Part shown: piece after piece, positions 3,001 to 40,448 of the stretch
Position numbering within the stretch: the first letter of the stretch is position 1
Layout: each line of letters opens with the position of its first letter
Source of the DNA: a virus
Strand: one strand, 5' to 3'
DNA: 61,923 bases
IMG/VR virus record: IMGVR_UViG_3300048591_001211
Span: 1 to 61,923 of that record
The notes under the pieces: model-generated
Told to the model about the DNA's origin: nothing
Seen by the model: the letters and a program-made list of their open reading frames with translations, nothing else
The model's database searches: none
Position numbers and translations under genes: made by a program

Positions 3001-6000
3001 CCCGTGCCAGATCCGTCGCTCCCCTCGCCGGCAACCGGCAATTTCAATTCAGGGAACCGCCGCATCACCATCGTCTGGACCGCAGCCGTGGACACCGATG
3101 ACATTTCGCTGACGAATGTCGGCTACACGTTTGACGCGCTGCCGGAAACGGTGACGACCGACACCGTCGACGCGCTCGCGTGGCGTCGTGCGAATCCCGG
3201 GTCCTACCAGAACCTCATGTATTCCGTACGGGATGGCGGCAGTTCACGGCTCTACGCCGCGAATTCCGGCACGGGTTCGGCCGCTGGTGCGGCGGCGTTC
3301 CAGGGCTACATCCAGGATGCCGGCAACAGCCTCGGCATCGTCACGGGCATGGCCTGGGGGAACGATGGCCTCCTCTACGGCGTCGACACCAATGGATGGT
3401 TCTTCACGATCAATGCGGGGAACGCTGTCGCCACCTTGATCAGCCAGGTCCCTGGCGCCTCGTTTCAGGGTCTGGCACTCGGGCCGCAGAACCTCGGAGC
3501 GGGTGCGTACGCCAATCTGTTCTTTGCGATCGACTCGATCGGGAACCTGCGGGCGCTGGATACCAACGGCGCGCTTTTGCCGGTGTTCGATCAGAATGGT
3601 GACGGCGTTGCCGGCGACCAGTTCGTGTCCACGGGCTTCTTTGGGGCGACGGGCCTTGCCTTCTCCCCGCTCGACGTCAATCTCTGGCACCCCACGACGT
3701 TCCGCGGCAAGGAGATTGGTCACGGCGTCAACAATTCGCTGGCCGCCGACGGCATTCGCCCACTCGACATCGAGGGTGGGTCGAGCATGTATTTCGGCTT
3801 TGAACAGTTTCAGGCAGAACTTCCAACGTACGACGGCTACGCGCTGGTCAACGGCCAGCACGGTGCGGTTTCGCCCACCTGGCATCAAGACCTCAGCACC
3901 AACGGGGTGCACAACAATTCGTACAACCTGCCGGGTGGCGCGTACGGAAGCATGCAGACGAACCCCTTCAGCCTGGAGGGATACGTCTATGGCGACAAGC
4001 CGACGCTCTACTTCAATTACTGGCTCGAGACGCAAGAGGCCGAAAGCCGGACCAACGGCATGCGGGACAGCGCCCGCGTGCTCGCATCGGTGGACGGTGG
4101 CCGGACGTGGGAACTCGTCGCCACGAACAACTCCCTGCGTTCAGACCCGGGCACCGAGAACGCCGAGCTTCCGGTGACGGCGACGGCATCGTCGGGGATC
4201 ACGAACTACACCAACCAGAAGGTCCAGGAACTGTTCGACTCCGGCGCGTGGAGGCAAGCGCGCATCGATCTTGGCGAATTCGCCGGCTTCGCCGATGTCC
4301 GGCTGCGGTTCGACTTCTCGACGGCCGGCGAGATGGATACGTCGCAAGTGTGGCGCACGAGCAAGCCGGTTCTCGTCGACGCCATCGCTTCAAATACCGT
4401 CACCTTTGGTGACGTGTCGGATCTCCTCACCGGACTGGTCATGGTCGACGGTGCGGGGCTTCCGCTGGGAGCCGTCACGGGCATCGATGCCGCGACGGGC
4501 ATCGTGACGCTCGACACGCCCGTCACGCTCACGCTGGATACGGTCGTCACGTTTGTCGATGCCAGCGGGCTCAATCTGCTGAACAACGTGCCGATCCCGG
4601 GCTTTTCCCCGATCCAGGCGCTCGGCAATTCGACCGGCAACTTCAACAGTCCGCAGCGAGGGCAGAACAACGCCTTCGGTGGATTCATGGTCGACGACGT
4701 CATCGTCGGCTTTGCCGAGCGCGGCGAGATGGTCACCCTTGCCGAACCAGACCAGACCGACTTTTTCGATACGGAGACCGAAGGCGCCGCGGCCCAGGTG
4801 CTGCTCGGCTCCTATCAGTTGGAGATCCGGCGCGGAACCGACTACGTCACGCCGACCGAACCGCCACTGATCTATCAGCTCTTCAATACGAACGATCCGC
4901 TCATCGCCGCCGCCGGCACGGGCACCGAGTATGGAGCGAGATTCGGTGACATGAACACGCCTCGTCAGCAGGGGCAGTTCATCGTCGAGAGCAACATCCT
5001 CTCGGATGCGGCCCAGTACGGGATCAGCATCACCGCGGGCGAGCGAGATGTGGACACCAATGCGCCTCATCCTGGAGTCGCGAGGAACCTTCCGGTCCTC
5101 AACAACGCCGGGCTGGCAGCGGGTGCCGTGGTGACCAACAACGTGGTGGCCTCGAGCGGAATCGCCGGAATTCGCGTGGCGGGCGACCCGAACACAGGGA
5201 ATGTGCCGCGCGGTGTGGTGCCGTTCGCGAGACTCGTCAACAACACGATCTACGGTGGTTCGACGTCGACCGGCACGGGTGTGGACGTGTCCCAGAACGC
5301 CGGGCCGACGATCATCAACAACCTCTTTGCCAACCTGGCGACCGGTGTGGCAGTCGACGGGTCGTCGCGGTTTGACAGCCAAGGCCGTCAGCGGACCGTG
5401 GTGGCGACATCGGCCTACTGGAATACCACGACCCAGGTCTCGGGAGCGTCGCAGAGCATCCCGATTCCGCTTTCGGCAAACCCGTTCGTGAACGCGGGAG
5501 CGAGGAACTTCTACCTCGTACCAGGATCGCAAGCGATCGACAGCTCACTCAACTCGCTCCAGGATCGCGAGGAGTTCCGCGTGGTCAACGCAAGCGTGGG
5601 CATCAATGGCAACACGTTGACAAGCCCCGACGGGGCATCGCCAATTCTGGCTCCGGACCGAGATCTGTATGGTCAGCTCCGGTCGGACGATCCCGCCCAG
5701 GCAAGTTTCCCTGGCCTCGGCCTCAATGTATTCAAGGACATCGGTGCTATCGATCGAGTCGATACGACCCAGCCGTTTGCCATGCTCGTTGTCCCGCTCG
5801 ACGGTGGTCCGTCCGATACCAACCCAACCCCGAACGTCGTTTTCCTGAATAGGCAGGATGCGAGAGGTCTGACCCGTTTTGAAATTCAGCTATCGGACAA
5901 CGGGGTTGGCATCGACAAGTCGACAGTCGTACCCGAAGCATTTGTCCTTACGCACAATGGTGTACCGCTCGTCGAGGGCGTTGACTACGTCTTCCGGTAT

Positions 6001-34927: not shown

Positions 34928-35473
34928 ATGGCCATCGATATCAACATCGACCTCGGTTACGCACTTGCTGCCTGGGTGGTCGCCGACTTCCTCTCGGGTG
35001 TCGTGCATTGGATTGAGGACCGCTACGGTGACCCAGCATGGCCCGTCATCGGCCGTCACGTCATCGAGCCGAACATCCTCCACCATCGGGACCAGATGGC
35101 GTTCACCGCGGGTGGCTACTGGCAACGCAACTGGACCACGCTCGTGCCGGCGGCGGCTGCCGCCGGGATGGCGTGGCTGGCCGGCTCGGCATTCCTGGCG
35201 GTCACGTTCCTCATGCTCTCCCAGGCGAACGAGATCCATGCCTGGGCTCACCAGCGATGCGTGCGCCCGATCCGCGGTCTGCAGCTCATCGGCATTTTCC
35301 AATCACCGGAGCAGCACGCCGATCACCACCGGCGGCCGTTCGACCGGAACTACTGCACCATGAGCGACTGGCTCAACCCGTTGCTATCGCGCGCCGGCTT
35401 CTGGCCCGCCCTCGAGCTGCTGGTGGCGAGGGTCACCGGGCTATCGCCACGACCCGAAAGGCAGGTGGCTTGA
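34928..35473 (+). CDS. CarF/TMEM189-like lipid (plasmanylethanolamine) desaturase
   Basis: This 181-residue protein has the histidine pattern of the CarF/TMEM189 desaturase domain: GVVHW (H27), EPNILHHRDQ (H52, H53), NEIHAWAHQ (H104, H108) and SPEQHADHHRRPFD (H130, H133, H134), followed by CTMSDWLNP. Hydrophobic stretches near residues 8-25 and 72-98 fit membrane embedding. In animals and myxobacteria this enzyme desaturates plasmanyl lipids to plasmalogens. A phage copy could remodel host membranes. It overlaps the HNH gene by 1 bp. Confidence 0.8.
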   Translation: MAIDINIDLGYALAAWVVADFLSGVVHWIEDRYGDPAWPVIGRHVIEPNILHHRDQMAFTAGGYWQRNWTTLVPAAAAAGMAWLAGSAFLAVTFLMLSQANEIHAWAHQRCVRPIRGLQLIGIFQSPEQHADHHRRPFDRNYCTMSDWLNPLLSRAGFWPALELLVARVTGLSPRPERQVA

Positions 35474-36033
35474 TGCCGCGCAAGCTCCCTTACGTCAGCG
35501 TGCCGAAGCCCCGCCGCCGCCCCAGTGCCGCGGCCCGCGGGTACTGCAGTCGCAAGCATCGGGAGTGGCGGCTCGCTGTCCTGCGACGGGATGAGTGGAC
35601 ATGCCAGGATTGCGGCCGGGTCTGCACTGACAAGGCAGAGGCGCACGCTGACCACGTCAGCCCGATCGTGCAGGGGACTGACTACTGCGAGGACGGGTCC
35701 AGTAGGTACGACGTGCGGAACGGTAAGTGCCGCTGCATCCGATGCCACAGCCGCAAGACGCAAGCCGAGAACGCCGGAGGGAAACGAATTCCGGCCGACC
35801 CCAGGGGGGGCTTCCAAAGTTCCAAAGCCCCCACGAATCCAAACCACCTGCTTGCCGCACGCACGCGACCGGGAGTTTTCGAGGGGGGGGGGTCGAATTC
35901 GCAATCCCCGGGTGAAACGGCGTCTGGGGCCGTGCGGTGGCCCGTCGTTGTGGACCCTGCCATGCCACCCGATCGGCTCCTCGTCGGTGGTGTTTGGATT
36001 GCCCTTGGGGTGCCTGCCGGGGGTGTGGAGTGA
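35473..36033 (+). CDS. HNH endonuclease
   Basis: This 186-residue protein has an HNH core at residues 28-95: EWTCQDCGRVC, EAHADHVSPI (catalytic His pair), and VRNGKCRCIRCHSRKT with zinc cysteines. HNH proteins near terminases assist DNA packaging in cos phages. The last 80 residues are low-complexity and GC-rich, containing a hairpin and a run of ten G; the tail may be poorly conserved. Its stop overlaps the GTG of the next gene. Confidence 0.8.
   Translation: MPRKLPYVSVPKPRRRPSAAARGYCSRKHREWRLAVLRRDEWTCQDCGRVCTDKAEAHADHVSPIVQGTDYCEDGSSRYDVRNGKCRCIRCHSRKTQAENAGGKRIPADPRGGFQSSKAPTNPNHLLAARTRPGVFEGGGSNSQSPGETASGAVRWPVVVDPAMPPDRLLVGGVWIALGVPAGGVE
35806..35832. repeat. Inverted repeat with nested direct repeat in HNH gene tail
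   Basis: GGGGGCTT (35806-35813) pairs with AAGCCCCC (35825-35832); between them TTCCAAAG is directly repeated (TTCCAAAGTTCCAAAG). A run of ten G follows at 35883-35892. The location after the HNH core and before the terminase makes a cos-like or packaging-related role conceivable. It may also be low-complexity sequence. Confidence 0.35.
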
Positions 36034-36602
36034 GTACCGGGACGATCCGAAACCGCGTGGTGAGGCTGGCGAGCGTTCGTGCCGGCGACCTGGTGCCGAA
36101 CCCCAGGAACTGGCGGACGCACCCGGCCGGACAGGCCGCCGCGCTCCGTGGGATCCTCGCCGAGATCGGGTACGCGGACGCCCTGCTCGCGCGGGAGTTG
36201 CCGGATGGTCGGCTGATGCTGATCGACGGTCACCTGCGGGCCGAGACGACACCCGACCTTGAGGTGCCGGTCCTGGTCCTCGACCTGAACGAAGAGGAGG
36301 CTGACAAGCTGCTCCTGTCCCTTGACCCGCTCGCCGCGATGGCGGAGGCGAACGCAGAGGCGATCGGCGAGCTGCTCCGCGAGGTGGAAACAGGCAGCGA
36401 AGGGCTGCAGAAGATGTACGCCGGGATGGCAAAAGACGCTGGCCTTCTCGCCGATGCCGACGCGTCGAGCCCGCAAGAGTCGGACTTTCAATACGAGCAG
36501 CAGTACGGCGTCACCGTGGTGTGTCGCGACGAGAGGCACCAGCAGGAGATCTACGATCGCCTGACGTCCGAGGGGCTGGAGTGCAAGGTGGTGGTCGTAT
36601 GA
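36030..36602 (+). CDS. ParB-like nuclease-domain protein
   Basis: This 190-residue protein begins with a GTG that overlaps the HNH stop. Its ParB N-terminal-like domain includes VRAGDLVPNPRNWRTHP, ALRGILAEIGYADALLAREL and LMLIDGHLRAETTP (the ParB/Srx GHxR box), then PVLVLDLNEEEADKLLLSLD. Such phage ParB-like proteins often precede methyltransferases or base-modifying enzymes. It overlaps the ABC-GNAT gene by ATGA. Role in DNA modification is inferred. Confidence 0.8.
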   Translation: MSTGTIRNRVVRLASVRAGDLVPNPRNWRTHPAGQAAALRGILAEIGYADALLARELPDGRLMLIDGHLRAETTPDLEVPVLVLDLNEEEADKLLLSLDPLAAMAEANAEAIGELLREVETGSEGLQKMYAGMAKDAGLLADADASSPQESDFQYEQQYGVTVVCRDERHQQEIYDRLTSEGLECKVVVV

Positions 36603-37711
36603 AAATCGCCGTCCGCAATCGGTGCTCCGACTTCAACTCGTACCGGGCCGCCCGCGTGAAAAGCCTCTTCAACGCGGAGAGCGGCTGCGACTTCACGCTC
36701 GACGCCGATCTCCCCATAGATGACAGCGATTGGAAACTCGGGCTTGTGGTAGGCCCGTCCGGCTCCGGCAAGACCTCGATCGGAAAGCAGATATTCGGCG
36801 ACGCCGGCGCGGTGTACGACCCGTCGGACTGGCCCGCGGACAAGCCGATCGTTGATGCGATTGCCCCTGGTGGCGACTTCGACGCGGTGACGGGCGCTCT
36901 TGCGTCTGTCGGGCTTGGAAGCGTTCCGGCGTGGTTGCGCCCGTTCCACGTTCTGTCGAACGGCGAGCGCTTTCGGGCGAACCTCGCTCGGCTCGTGTGC
37001 GAGGCACCGCCGAAGGTTGTGGTCGACGAGTTCACCTCGGTCGTGGACAGGCAAATAGCCAGGTTCGGTGCGCTGGCCTTCCAGAAGTCGTGGCGTCGAA
37101 CCGGCGGGAAGTGCGTGCTGCTCTCTTGTCACTACGACGTGATCGATTGGCTGGAGCCGGACTGGGTCTACGACACCTCAAGCGGCCAATACGCCGGGAG
37201 GCGTCTTTGGCGACGGCCAAAGTTCGACCTCGAGATATGGCAGACGGACAAGCGCTACTGGCACCTGTTTGAGCCGCATTACTATCTGAGGCTGCCATCG
37301 ATGATCGCGGCAACGTACTACGTCGGGTTCGTCGACGGGGAGCCCGTGTGCCACCTCGGGGTTTCCCCGAAGCTCGAGGTGGGAGGTATGCGCGCGAGTC
37401 GCATGGTCGTGATGCCCGAGTGGCAAGGGGCCGGCGTCGGTGTTCGCTTCTTGAACGAGGTGTGCCAAATGCAGATCGATGGCCGCGGCCCATACGGCCG
37501 TCGCCCGCGCTGCGTTTTCTTCCATACGTCGCACCCAGGCCTGTGCCACGCACTGCGCAAGTCGCCCGGCTGGAGGCAGGTGAGCGCGGTGCTCGCCGGC
37601 GGGAATAAGGCCAGGAGCCGGAGAAGCATGCAGAAGTCGGGAGCGGTCACTGCCGGTTACGGCGGCCACTTCCGCGCGGTCCAGGGTTTCAAGTATGTCG
37701 GCTGTGCCTAG
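36599..37711 (+). CDS. ABC-ATPase-GNAT acetyltransferase fusion
   Basis: This 370-residue protein has a complete ABC-type ATPase: Walker A GPSGSGKT at residues 52-59, signature HVLSNGERFRANLARL, Walker B KVVVDEFTSV, H-loop VLLSCHYDV. A GNAT domain follows, with MRASRMVVMPEWQGAGVGVRF as the acetyl-CoA-binding motif A, and a conserved end (YGGHFRAVQGFKYVG). I recognise the family as widespread but uncharacterised in phages and prophages. GNAT folds also include Mom-type DNA modification enzymes, so a base-modifying role is plausible. Confidence 0.8.
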   Translation: MKIAVRNRCSDFNSYRAARVKSLFNAESGCDFTLDADLPIDDSDWKLGLVVGPSGSGKTSIGKQIFGDAGAVYDPSDWPADKPIVDAIAPGGDFDAVTGALASVGLGSVPAWLRPFHVLSNGERFRANLARLVCEAPPKVVVDEFTSVVDRQIARFGALAFQKSWRRTGGKCVLLSCHYDVIDWLEPDWVYDTSSGQYAGRRLWRRPKFDLEIWQTDKRYWHLFEPHYYLRLPSMIAATYYVGFVDGEPVCHLGVSPKLEVGGMRASRMVVMPEWQGAGVGVRFLNEVCQMQIDGRGPYGRRPRCVFFHTSHPGLCHALRKSPGWRQVSAVLAGGNKARSRRSMQKSGAVTAGYGGHFRAVQGFKYVGCA

Positions 37712-38360
37712 GATGCGCCTCTACATATGCGGCCAGCGTGAGTTTGGCGCACGTGTCCTTCGGCTCGCCGTCGGCATGGGGCACGATGTCGTCGGCTGCT
37801 GCTGCCCGGTCGGAAACTCTAAGGGCGACGGGCCTGACCGCACGCGTGAGGCGGCAGGAGTTTTCGGGGTCCCTTGCATCCCGTCCGGAACGCTGACGCA
37901 CGACAAGGTTCCCGAAGGCGTTGACGCGATCGTCGCCGCGCACTCGCACGACTTCATCGGGCAGCGAACCCGCTACAGGGCGAGGTACGGAGCGTTCGGC
38001 TACCACCCGTCCCTACTCCCCAGGCACAGGGGCCGCGATGCAGTTCGCTGGACCGTGCGCATGCGAGACCCTATCGCCGGAGGATCCATTTACTGGCTGA
38101 ACGAGGTTATGGACGGAGGCCCGATCGCCGCTCAGGAATGGTGCTGGGTGTACGGCGATGACACGCCCGAGCGGCTTTGGAGGGAACGGCTGTTTCCGAT
38201 CGGGCTGTCGCTCATGGAGCGAGTCCTTTCCGACATCCCGCGGCACTTTGAAAACAAGGTCGCGCAGGACGAGAGGGCGGCCACCTTTGAGCCTTCGATG
38301 AGCCCACCGAGGGCATTCCGGCCGGACCTGCTTGGCATCCCGTTTCGTCACGCGTGCTAA
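37695..38360 (+). CDS. Formyltransferase family protein
   Basis: This 221-residue protein belongs to the methionyl-tRNA/GAR formyltransferase superfamily: GYHPSLLPRHRG near residues 102-113 and EVMDGGPIAAQ near 137-147. His104 and Asp140 of the catalytic set are present, but the usual Asn two residues before the His is Gly102, so the chemistry may differ. ATG 37695 has AGGG upstream; ATG 37713 (MRLYICGQ) is a good alternative start. It follows the ABC-GNAT gene and precedes the terminase. Confidence 0.75.
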   Translation: MSAVPRMRLYICGQREFGARVLRLAVGMGHDVVGCCCPVGNSKGDGPDRTREAAGVFGVPCIPSGTLTHDKVPEGVDAIVAAHSHDFIGQRTRYRARYGAFGYHPSLLPRHRGRDAVRWTVRMRDPIAGGSIYWLNEVMDGGPIAAQEWCWVYGDDTPERLWRERLFPIGLSLMERVLSDIPRHFENKVAQDERAATFEPSMSPPRAFRPDLLGIPFRHAC

Positions 38361-38371
38361 GGGAGGAACCT

Positions 38372-38875
38372 ATGGGAAAGCGGGGTCCACCGCCAAAGCC
38401 CACGACGCTCAAAATCGCCAGCGGAAACGCGTCGAAGGAGAACCTCGACGACCGTGTGCGGCGCGAGCCTCGCCCGCACGATGGCGACATCGAGCCGCCG
38501 GTGTGGCTGACGGGAGCGGCCCTGGAGAAGTGGGGCGAGATGCTGCCCATCATCCAGGGCATGAAGGTGATGACGTCGGCGGACGTTGACGCCCTGGGTC
38601 GGTACTGCGTGCTTCACGAGATGTACGTGAAGTACCTCGACCAATGCCGTCGCGGCCTCGATGTGCTCGTGCTCCGCGATGCGAACGGGAAGGTCAAGTA
38701 CATGCAGAGCACGCCGGCCGCGGTGATGTTCCAGAAGCTCGGCCAGCAACTTGACCGCCTTGGTCAGCAGTTCGGCCTGACACCTTCTTCTCGCACGGCG
38801 ATCAACGTGGACCACGGGGAGACAGCTGACAGTGTCCGAGCTTGGCTGGACGAGACGACTCTGGACGCCGGATGA
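38372..38875 (+). CDS. terS: Terminase small subunit (P27 family)
   Basis: This 167-residue protein has the P27-like start (RGPPPKPTTLKIASGNAS) and DIEPPVWLTGAALEKWGEML followed by a helical region (DVDALGRYCVLHEMYVKY) and a C-terminal FGLTPSSRTAIN, the typical small-terminase end. It recognises phage DNA and recruits the large subunit, whose gene overlaps it by 44 bp. GGGAGG lies upstream of the ATG. Confidence 0.85.
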   Translation: MGKRGPPPKPTTLKIASGNASKENLDDRVRREPRPHDGDIEPPVWLTGAALEKWGEMLPIIQGMKVMTSADVDALGRYCVLHEMYVKYLDQCRRGLDVLVLRDANGKVKYMQSTPAAVMFQKLGQQLDRLGQQFGLTPSSRTAINVDHGETADSVRAWLDETTLDAG

Positions 38876-40448
38876 GCAACGACTGCGGCCCGAGTTCCTC
38901 GACGGCTACGTCTGGAACGGCAAGGCGGCTGAGCGGGCGTGCCAATTCATCGAGCGGTTTTGCCGGCTTCCCGGCAAGACTCGGTGGGGCTCGCCTGTTC
39001 GGCTTATGCGGTGGCACGCCGACGAGGTGTTCTACCCTTTGATCGGGTGGGAACGCCCGGACGGCAGGCGACGGTTCCGACGAGGCGGGCTTTTCGTCCC
39101 GAAGAAGAACACGAAGAGCAGTCTCACGAGCTGGCTGACCACGTTCTTCATGACCGCCGACTTCCCGCTCACAGACGTGTTCGGAGCGGCTACGGACCGC
39201 AACCAGGCGAAGATCATTTTCAACATGGTGGCCCGCTCGATCCAGAAGAGCCCCGCGCTTTCTCAGATCCTCACTGTCGTCAAAAGCTCCTCGACGATCG
39301 TCAATAAGGAGCACGGCAACGAGTACCGATGCCTTTCCTCCGACTCGTGGAGGCAGGAAGGCTTGAACGGAAAGGTCGTGATCGACGAGATTCACGCCCA
39401 CCGATCACACGACCTGATCGACGCGCTGGTCTACGCAAATCGAGCCACGCCAAACGGCCTCGTGCTCGGGATATCCACGGCCGGTTCCGAGCGGTCCGGA
39501 GTCGGCTGGCAGTGGTGGCAAGACTGTGAGATCGTGTCGCGTGAGCCTGAGGCAATTCCGAACTTCTACGGGAAAATCTACGCGGCCAAGGATACCGACG
39601 ACTTTAGCGACCCCGCGTTGTGGAGACGCGTCAACCCGTGCATGGGCGTCACGTTCCCGGAGGACGAGTTCGCCGACGACTACAAGGACGCTCTAACCGA
39701 CCCGCGGAAGATGGCCCGCTTCTTGCGGTACAGCCTGAACGTGTGGTGCGCCGCCGACAGCCGCTGGATACCGCCCGAAGAGTGGGCCGCCTGCTACATC
39801 GCCGAGATGCTGCTCGCGGACAAGGCCGAGTGCTGGATCGGCGTGGACCTCGCGTGGTCGGAGGACACGACCGCCGTCGTGGCGATTTTCCCGGACAAGA
39901 AAGGCGGTTTCGACGTGTGGTGCCGCATCTACCTACCAGAGGAATTGGTCGACGATCGCGAGCGACGGGATCGTTGTGAGTACCGACAATGGGCCGAAGA
40001 CGGCTTTGTCATTCTGACGCCTGGCGCCGTCACGGACTACGACTTCATCCGACGCGACATCGAAGCGCTTAACCGCAAATACACCATCAAGATGATCGCG
40101 GTCGACCCACACAACGCGACGCACATCACCAACCAACTTGATGGTGCAGGCCTGCCTGTGAAGAAGTACCCGCAAAGCTACGCGGGGATGAACGCTCCGT
40201 GCCGGTTGATCGAGACGCTGATCTCCAAACGAGCGATCCGACACACGTCTCCAGCGCTAAGCCGGCAAATGGGTAACGTCGCCGTCAAGATGAACGCGGA
40301 AGGTCTCATCCGTCCGCTCAAGCCGAAGCTTAACTCCCCGCTTCGAGTCGACGGACCGCTCGCGATGTGCATGGCCTTCGGTGCTTGGAGCGAAACGGGG
40401 CAGGAGCCGGAGAAGCCCAAGGTTCGCCCGAGGATTCACGCGCTATGA
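38832..40448 (+). CDS. terL: Terminase large subunit
   Basis: This 538-residue packaging motor has an ATPase with PKKNTKSS at residues 90-97 (Walker A-like), VVIDEIHAH (Walker B), and LVLGISTAG (motif III). The C-terminal nuclease carries IGVDLAWSEDTT, MIAVDPHNATH and RVDGPLAMCMAF with the metal-binding Asp residues. It starts at a GTG inside the small-subunit gene. It translocates DNA into proheads and cuts it; the HK97-type neighbourhood supports the call. Confidence 0.95.
   Translation: MSELGWTRRLWTPDEQRLRPEFLDGYVWNGKAAERACQFIERFCRLPGKTRWGSPVRLMRWHADEVFYPLIGWERPDGRRRFRRGGLFVPKKNTKSSLTSWLTTFFMTADFPLTDVFGAATDRNQAKIIFNMVARSIQKSPALSQILTVVKSSSTIVNKEHGNEYRCLSSDSWRQEGLNGKVVIDEIHAHRSHDLIDALVYANRATPNGLVLGISTAGSERSGVGWQWWQDCEIVSREPEAIPNFYGKIYAAKDTDDFSDPALWRRVNPCMGVTFPEDEFADDYKDALTDPRKMARFLRYSLNVWCAADSRWIPPEEWAACYIAEMLLADKAECWIGVDLAWSEDTTAVVAIFPDKKGGFDVWCRIYLPEELVDDRERRDRCEYRQWAEDGFVILTPGAVTDYDFIRRDIEALNRKYTIKMIAVDPHNATHITNQLDGAGLPVKKYPQSYAGMNAPCRLIETLISKRAIRHTSPALSRQMGNVAVKMNAEGLIRPLKPKLNSPLRVDGPLAMCMAFGAWSETGQEPEKPKVRPRIHAL

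Follow-up and report, generated by a model that had tools for sequence, protein, structure and literature searches.

A phage cassette of an ABC-ATPase/GNAT fusion and a formyltransferase homologue as a candidate system for DNA base acylation

In the Mom/Com system of phage Mu (PF25680 and PF10122), a GNAT-fold enzyme, Mom, gives rise to N6-carbamoylmethyladenine in DNA. In the tRNA or RNA cytidine acetyltransferases TmcA/NAT10, an ATPase is joined to an acyl-CoA GNAT that acts on an exocyclic base amine. A pair of an ABC ATPase and a GNAT was earlier predicted to acylate DNA bases (Iyer et al. 2013, ref. 136 of PMC7824862); as summarised there, the pair is of the same family as the fusion protein described below, its named examples, Tenacibaculum phage pT24 and QAX98348.1, being matches in our searches, and the general prediction, acyl modification of a nucleobase, is the same. 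The account of ABC-GNAT in PMC7824862 does not mention the formyltransferase, the tail peptide, the exchange with com/mom or the PanD/CoA-transferase variant. We found no description of these partners, of the mom/com swap or of the donor hypothesis, parts of which Iyer et al. 2013 may already cover.

The viral DNA analyzed here (61,923 nt of IMG/VR record IMGVR_UViG_3300048591_001211, hereafter the window) carries a string of overlapping genes before the small terminase gene terS, in the order HNH endonuclease, ParB-like protein, ABC-ATPase/GNAT fusion (ABC-GNAT) and formyltransferase homologue (FTase) (Table 1). The first-pass annotation had described the last three as coupled genes directly before terS, and this description held: all three are open, with no internal stops, and are translationally coupled. 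The HNH gene is a fourth member of the same string, overlapping the ParB-like gene by 4 nt (GTGA), and the ParB-like gene overlaps the ABC-GNAT gene by 4 nt as well. The FTase start was moved from 37695 to 37713 by comparison with relatives. The HNH endonuclease is a candidate cassette member only, and its role is probably related to packaging.

Table 1. Features of the cassette and its neighbors in the window
Feature	Position	Strand	Basis
HNH endonuclease gene	35473..36033	+	Pfam HNH E 5e-4, marginally below the cutoff; phrog_589 HNH E 5e-19
ParB/Srx-like protein, 190 aa, GTG start	36030..36602	+	phrog_498 E 8e-12; phrog_620 E 6.5e-11
Tail peptide, residues 159-190 of ParB-like protein (YGVTVVC...KVVVV)	36504..36599	+	phrog_28816 E 3.7e-11
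ABC-ATPase/GNAT fusion, 370 aa, ATG start	36599..37711	+	phrog_11143 E 2e-146; AlphaFold pLDDT 84
Walker A GPSGSGKT of ABC-GNAT	36752..36775	+	invariant alignment columns
GNAT motif A QGAGVG, acyl-CoA pyrophosphate loop	37424..37441	+	151/151 relatives
Formyltransferase-fold protein (FTase), 215 aa, FDH-hydrolase/HypX-like	37713..38360	+	Pfam Formyl_trans_N E 6e-15
Terminase small subunit (TerS)	38354..38875	+	Terminase_4 E 1e-15
Terminase large subunit (TerL)	38832..40448	+	TerL_nuclease E 7e-35

The call of an ABC ATPase fused to a GNAT domain with all motifs in place was borne out by the motif check, by the family profile and by the domain order in the AlphaFold model. The protein matched phrog_11143 over its full length (residues 1-368 to profile positions 1-350 of 357), and its signature (LSNGE), Walker B (VVVDEFTS) and H-loop (CHYD) are intact, as are Walker A and GNAT motif A (Q/RxxGxG/A). 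Among 151 nonredundant relatives, Walker A was retained in 149, the signature in 150 and GNAT motif A in every one. In the model, the ABC domain, whose fold matches were ABC NBDs, is followed by a GNAT domain that resembles CoA-dependent acetyltransferases (E 7e-6 in a fold search). Searches of the cassette protein against Pfam and of its profile against the PDB gave no Mom (PF25680) hit, and structure 8bv8 was absent from the top 50 fold matches of the GNAT model. As judged from its sequence, the GNAT of the fusion is an ordinary acyl-CoA GNAT and not a detectable relative of Mom; homology to Mom was rejected (hhalign P 0.13, not significant), and Mom was kept as a functional analogy only. 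The profile match to TmcA/NAT10 was very weak (E 0.14), and the cassette differs from these enzymes in its ATPase, which is ABC-type rather than RecA/helicase-type, in its partners and in its target, which is thought to be DNA. A scan of genome contigs for ABC-GNAT returned nine real relatives; three Streptomyces loci (L146-L148) were dropped as weak matches to the ABC part only. Identity with a defence system was likewise rejected, PADLOC yielding only weak ATPase-motif matches to mad3 and mad8.

The call of a ParB/Srx-like protein upstream of ABC-GNAT stood only in part. The protein gave zero matches in Pfam, and PHROG ParB/methyltransferase families matched it at E 8e-12 to 6e-11; the Pfam ParB_N model was passed by two relatives (L005 and L007). 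Its best-conserved part is a C-terminal tail of about 40 residues (phrog_28816, E 4e-11). All 11 of its matches among phage records span this tail only, and all 11 adjoin ABC-GNAT. The tail lies upstream of ABC-GNAT in 101 of the 111 loci of the window's clade (clade A), and, as seen in Mu-like and Bacteroidetes phages, it is often an ORF of its own, with a length of 42-69 aa in most cases; it was not found in a ParB protein that adjoins a Mom (Appa). The constant partner in the cassette is the tail; the weakly matched ParB domain is optional.

The formyltransferase homologue was confirmed by Pfam (Table 1), though it is without the catalytic Asn of amine formyltransferases. When the family profile was compared with the PDB, the best match was 10-formyl-THF dehydrogenase (FDH; E 7.5e-42), ahead of fMet-tRNA formyltransferase (FMT; 1.3e-25), ArnA (1e-17), PurN (5e-16) and HypX (6.6e-14). 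The catalytic His and Asp were invariant in 74 of 74 members. Two residues before the His, at the position of the catalytic Asn, we found Gly in 64 members, Ile in 9, Val in 1 and Asn in none, and Gly in 78 of 78 sequences of the FTase-seeded set; this hallmark of amine formyltransferases is absent from every scorable FTase. In FDH this site is occupied by Ile104; FMT, ArnA and GART depend critically on the Asn (PMC4388273). FDH hands the formyl group to 4'-phosphopantetheine (4'-PP) (PMC8748788), while production of formyl-CoA by HypX is only proposed, in a paper that gives just one other reported role for formyl-CoA (PMC6802093). Like the N-terminal domains of FDH and HypX, the FTase keeps His, Ser and Asp without the catalytic Asn; FDH is its closest solved relative by profile, and the formyl acceptor is the phosphopantetheine thiol for FDH and, as proposed, CoA for HypX. 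Unlike them, the cassette FTase is a stand-alone protein with no ACP, C-terminal, ALDH or crotonase domain, and HypX is the more distant relative. By its profile and the replacement of the Asn, the FTase looks like a member of the formyl-thiol enzymes of the FDH and HypX type, and this resemblance suggests a role in making the acyl donor, not in the addition of a second group. Of the two roles previously allowed for it, supplying a group is favored and adding one is disfavored.

The disfavored role would be played in a two-step scheme: an acyl-CoA would provide an amine-bearing acyl group (e.g., glycyl or beta-alanyl) that ABC-GNAT attaches to the DNA base, after which the FTase would use 10-formyl-THF to N-formylate its amine. 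Amines are the substrate of most formyltransferases with this fold; the PanD of a sister cassette, with a CoA-transferase homologue alongside, yields a free-amine amino acid; and the clade-specific linkage of the FTase is explained equally well. We nevertheless consider this scheme unlikely, as the amine-formylation Asn of FMT, ArnA and GART is missing from every scorable FTase and clade A contains no obvious enzyme that makes an aminoacyl-CoA.

The FTase adjoins ABC-GNAT in 86 of 94 loci of clade A and in 0 of 38 loci of its sister clade (clade B), and a reciprocal search seeded with the FTase found ABC-GNAT directly upstream in 75 of 76 loci. Distances among the ABC proteins were correlated with those among the FTases (rho 0.56, matched in 0 of 200 permutations). 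The co-occurrence of ABC-GNAT and FTase is far beyond chance, and the cassette was found repeatedly in unrelated phages. The first-pass annotation had treated the three families as one unit, and with the tail included their co-occurrence across phages proved very strong. In the few clade-A loci from which the FTase is missing (L057/L077 and L063), the GNAT may use another or a host-made acyl-CoA. ABC-GNAT could instead be a plain DNA base acetyltransferase using acetyl-CoA, with the FTase as a side activity, a 10-formyl-THF hydrolase shifting folate or nucleotide pools. The acetyltransferase-like GNAT fold, the hydrolysis of 10-formyl-THF by FDH-type domains and the absence of the FTase from some cassettes agree with this; it seems improbable to us, however, as so constant an association with ABC-GNAT would be needless for a free metabolic enzyme and the absence of the FTase is clade-specific, not random.

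A profile search placed com (Pfam PF10122) upstream of the cassette in 23 nonredundant Mu-like loci, which are relatives and not the window itself. An ORF followed com in 75 loci, and this ORF was a C5-cytosine methyltransferase in 49, a D12 adenine methyltransferase in 16, mom in 1, ABC-GNAT in 6 and unclassified in 3; where ABC-GNAT was not present, a DNA methyltransferase or mom came next in 66 of 69. Porphyromonas phage012a has mom at the site where phage008a and phage007a have tail, ABC-GNAT and FTase, and the flanks of this exchange are 88-92% identical over kilobases, as well as over a right-end stretch. The cassette lies beside the terminase or, in Mu-like phages, at the right end. It occupies the slot where other phages keep DNA-modifying enzymes, and DNA-base modification is a prediction well supported by this genomic context. 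With Mom/Com the cassette shares the slot, the upstream com, the allelic exchange, a GNAT-fold enzyme and presumably the anti-restriction purpose; it differs in retaining GNAT motif A, which is absent from nine Mom proteins, in the lack of detectable profile homology, in the fusion of its GNAT to an ABC ATPase and in needing the FTase and tail as partners. The earlier idea of a late, Mom-like DNA-modifying cassette is supported by linkage, com position, mom swap and proximity to the terminase, and its GNAT would be Mom-like in role rather than by detectable descent.

Were the target not DNA, ABC-GNAT could act late in infection on tRNA, the ribosome or a host protein, as in host takeover. Proteins or small amines are the substrates of most GNATs, tRNA is that of TmcA-type ATPase-GNAT enzymes, and jumbo-phage GNATs are thought, in the account of PMC7824862, to modify RNAP. 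We assign such a target a low probability in view of the com slot common to DNA methyltransferases, mom and the cassette, the one-for-one replacement of mom in the Porphyromonas phages, and the late position. That the protein itself blocks restriction by binding to DNA or to the enzyme, leaving the DNA unmodified, would suit the anti-restriction slot and an ABC domain that may bind DNA, but it is highly improbable, as retained catalytic motifs and a co-conserved donor-type enzyme would both be needless for a non-catalytic blocker.

We propose that the cassette is expressed late and acylates DNA bases, with a Mom-like action and acyl-CoA chemistry. That it acylates DNA bases is likely, with DNA as the target read from gene position; to the combined statement, base acylation by ABC-GNAT with formyl-CoA made by the FTase, we give a probability of roughly 0.4. 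Formyl-CoA as the donor is a tentative element, and to our knowledge its use by a GNAT has no precedent. The FTase would move formyl from 10-formyl-THF onto the thiol of CoA, as modeled on the FDH hydrolase domain with its 4'-phosphopantetheine thiol and on the proposed reaction of HypX with CoA. ABC-GNAT would bind the resulting formyl-CoA through its intact motif A, engage or open DNA by ATP use in the ABC domain, and N-acylate an exocyclic base amine, at either N4 of cytosine or N6 of adenine, much as TmcA acts on tRNA in an ATP-dependent way. The tail peptide may dock ABC-GNAT, and the optional ParB domain may link it to DNA. The outcome would be phage DNA shielded from restriction around packaging. 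If true, the proposal would give a defined role to phrog_11143, a widespread phage family so far without an assigned function, and a further use to formyl-CoA. It is directly testable in isolated carriers, Komp_PAO1_1 of P. aeruginosa PAO1 and a group of Gordonia phages that includes Axumite, and the interchange of mom-dependent protection and cassette within one phage lineage offers a natural comparison.

A Jace-type sister cassette, with PanD (aspartate decarboxylase; 8 loci) and a homologue of class III CoA-transferases (11 loci) in place of the FTase, speaks for acyl-CoA chemistry as well. A bolder version of the proposal, which we regard as doubtful, would have phages formylate bases (N4-formylcytosine or N6-formyladenine) with FTase-made formyl-CoA and would make ABC-GNAT a modular DNA acyl-writer, its acyl group set by exchangeable donor genes: FTase for formyl, PanD with CoA-transferase for beta-alanyl or similar, and ASCH for removal. 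If true, a further class of DNA hypermodification would join the few phage base chemistries known, one in which a CoA thioester supplies the acyl group and the donor modules can be exchanged. Pfam searches of the insert ORFs at L036 and L042 did not find an ASCH domain, and the ASCH reading is based on the motif KxxTxR and one weak NCBIfam match (E 0.0065). The ASCH-like ORFs of three cassettes (3 of 154 loci) retain KxxTxR, the motif of the N4-acylcytosine amidohydrolase YqfB (PMC6972931), a hint that they may act as acyl-base erasers.

The gene cassette ahead of terS in the window, an IMG/VR virus record of 61,923 nt, comprising a ParB-like gene, a gene for an ABC-ATPase/GNAT fusion protein (ABC-GNAT) and one for a formyltransferase-fold protein (FTase), likely acylates DNA bases (probability about 0.8). 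The first-pass annotation had described these three coupled genes beside the terminase as a cassette that may modify DNA bases or block restriction. The gene string itself was confirmed: no internal stop was observed in any frame of the cassette genes, 4-nt overlaps join HNH to the ParB-like gene and the latter to ABC-GNAT, and terS overlaps the 3' end of FTase by 7 nt. The ABC domain carries Walker A (GPSGSGKT), signature (LSNGE), Walker B (VVVDEFTS) and H-loop (CHYD) motifs, and the GNAT domain carries motif A (QGAGVG). In the AlphaFold model built with 37 related sequences, the ABC domain is followed by the GNAT domain (pLDDT 84; 86 for GNAT modeled alone). The ParB identity was weak at the Pfam level, and the FTase start was refined to 37713.

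Gene string preceding the terminase genes in the window
Feature	Position	Context
HNH	35473-36033	downstream of lipid-desaturase gene
ParB-like gene	36030-36602	between HNH and ABC-GNAT
ABC-GNAT	36599-37711	between ParB-like gene and FTase
FTase	37713-38360	followed by terS, terL

Directly upstream of HNH, in the phage late region, a 181-aa lipid desaturase is encoded (34928-35473, plus strand; PF10520, E = 1.4e-42), an odd cargo for a phage; its match to the NCBIfam CarF plasmanylethanolamine desaturase model (E = 9e-27) fell far below the cutoff.

Conservation of the gene order was examined in 154 ABC-GNAT loci, nonredundant at 90% identity, from viral contigs, genomes and phage records, which were divided into the window's own clade A (at least 45% identity to the window ABC-GNAT; n = 112) and a sister clade B (n = 42). 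In counts that are not fully independent, as many contigs are related, FTase adjoined ABC-GNAT in 86 of the 94 clade A loci with enough downstream sequence and in 0 of 38 clade B loci, while the conserved C-terminal part of the window ParB-like protein (the tail) was encoded directly upstream of ABC-GNAT in 101/111 clade A loci and was present in 17/39 of clade B. A reverse search from FTase found ABC-GNAT directly upstream in 75 of 76 loci and about 1.1 kb further upstream in the other, and protein distances of the two families were correlated (Spearman 0.56; 0/200 permutations). Among the carriers were Mu-like phages of Pseudomonas and Porphyromonas as well as Gordonia phages in which the cassette is linked to the terminase. 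The co-occurrence proposed in the first-pass annotation as a check is thus very strong, with the tail rather than the ParB domain as the constant partner. ABC-GNAT genes also occurred as tandem pairs in six loci (L150 4001-7261, where the pair flanks PanD and CoA-transferase genes, and L151-L155), and an intein-like insertion with homing-endonuclease-like sequence splits the ABC Walker A (GSGK/T) in another (L176 2699-4945).

A tblastn search of phage records with the window ParB-like protein matched only residues 148-190, corresponding to the tail (phrog_28816), in 11 records, all of which contained ABC-GNAT. Among 118 tailed loci, the tail was a stand-alone ORF of <80 aa in 44 and the end of a longer, mostly ParB-like protein in 74. 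The constant unit is therefore tail plus ABC-GNAT, with FTase in clade A, rather than ParB plus ABC-GNAT. Stand-alone tails are labeled "acr candidate" in Porphyromonas phage records (L002 5876-6004; L125 7876-8004), which is probably a misannotation. In Microbacterium phage Appa (L124 2469-3621), a ParB-like gene, ending in a CPxC zinc-ribbon-like C-terminus in place of the tail, precedes and overlaps a Mom-like gene, and thus the ParB pairing extends to Mom.

The position of the cassette was compared with that of com, whose product in Mu activates translation of mom (PMC6483171). In Komp_PAO1_1, a tail-fibre assembly gene is followed by com (unannotated in the record; PF10122, E = 9e-21), tail, ABC-GNAT and FTase, and com lay upstream of the cassette in 23 nonredundant loci, several confirmed by Pfam. 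A com-seeded scan gave 75 loci in which an ORF follows com; with families counted by clustering and one representative of each checked by Pfam, these ORFs comprised C5-cytosine methyltransferase (49), D12 adenine methyltransferase (16), ABC-GNAT (6), mom (1) and unclassified ORFs (3). In P. gingivalis phage012a, mom occupies the exact position of tail, ABC-GNAT and FTase in phage008a and phage007a, where the left flanks share 88-92% identity across kilobases and similarity resumes at the right end at ~82%. These gene-position arguments point the same way, to a DNA base-modification slot. Aeromonas phage PX29 (NC_023688) encodes both an ABC-GNAT protein (~53.3-54.2 kb) and a Mom homologue (~36.3-36.9 kb).

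GNAT motif A was present in 151/151 ABC-GNAT members scored, and the GNAT domain resembles ordinary CoA-dependent acetyltransferases such as SpeG and RimI. Mom differs, the motif being absent from nine Mom proteins. A profile comparison of ABC-GNAT with Mom was not significant, although the HHY/HYS motifs align. A 2021 paper from the Aravind group refers to their earlier prediction that a GNAT coupled with an ABC ATPase adds an uncharacterised acyl group to a nucleobase, and the proteins it names belong to the ABC-GNAT family (PMC7824862); acylation by the family is therefore already known, as a prediction. In the readable literature, which excludes the original 2013 paper, no account was found of FTase as a partner, of the tail, of the exchange at the com/mom locus, of the variant with PanD and CoA-transferase or of a donor hypothesis.

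The FTase family profile matched the hydrolase domain of 10-formyl-THF dehydrogenase (FDH; 7.5e-42) more strongly than fMet-tRNA formyltransferase (1.3e-25) or HypX (6.6e-14). The catalytic-type His and Asp were invariant (74/74), and the Asn site of amine formyltransferases, located with an E. coli FMT sequence as position marker, was Gly in 64, Ile in 9 and Val in 1. FDH likewise lacks this Asn, having Ile; the Asn is described as crucial in FMT, ArnA and GART (PMC4388273). FDH passes formyl to the 4'-phosphopantetheine thiol (PMC8748788), and HypX is a proposed maker of formyl-CoA (PMC6802093). The clade B sister cassette (Jace and relatives) carried PanD in 8 loci, with the GS self-processing site retained in Jace by eye; in 11 loci it included a short homologue of class III CoA-transferases. 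With FTase in one variant and PanD/CoA-transferase in the other, both pair an acyl-CoA enzyme with potential acyl-CoA-making genes. We infer that formyl-CoA is a plausible acyl donor, at clearly less than even odds.

Three cassettes contained a small extra ASCH-like ORF with KxxTxR (L036 1085-1465, L042 937-1443, L139 6136-6498), one of which matched the NCBIfam N(4)-acetylcytidine aminohydrolase model (E = 0.0065). In YqfB, an ASCH N4-acylcytosine amidohydrolase, this motif comprises Lys21, Thr24 and Arg26 (PMC6972931). These ORFs hint at a possible eraser of the modification and offer a lead, rather than a test, to cytosine N4 as a candidate target.

The window ABC-GNAT gene is one continuous frame, unlike its split relatives. 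In eight Bacteroidetes-type loci (L081-L086, L139, L140), ABC and GNAT lie in separate frames (-1), and a conserved stretch of 9-10 A, around nt 5595-5606, marks the frame junction within the linker. No start codon was observed between the last stop and the invariant HHYL of the GNAT frame in 7/8, the exception, L139, having one TTG, and thus the GNAT core seems to be reached only via frameshifting or transcriptional slippage. The A run and -1 frame change suggest programmed frameshifting or slippage in these loci. The protein is likewise split over two frames in Streptococcus, Lactococcus and Oenococcus phages, possibly a second recoding lineage in Firmicutes phages. In five Firmicutes phage loci (L005, L126, L127, L128, L129), the overlapping frames are annotated as an ABC transporter and a hypothetical or other protein.
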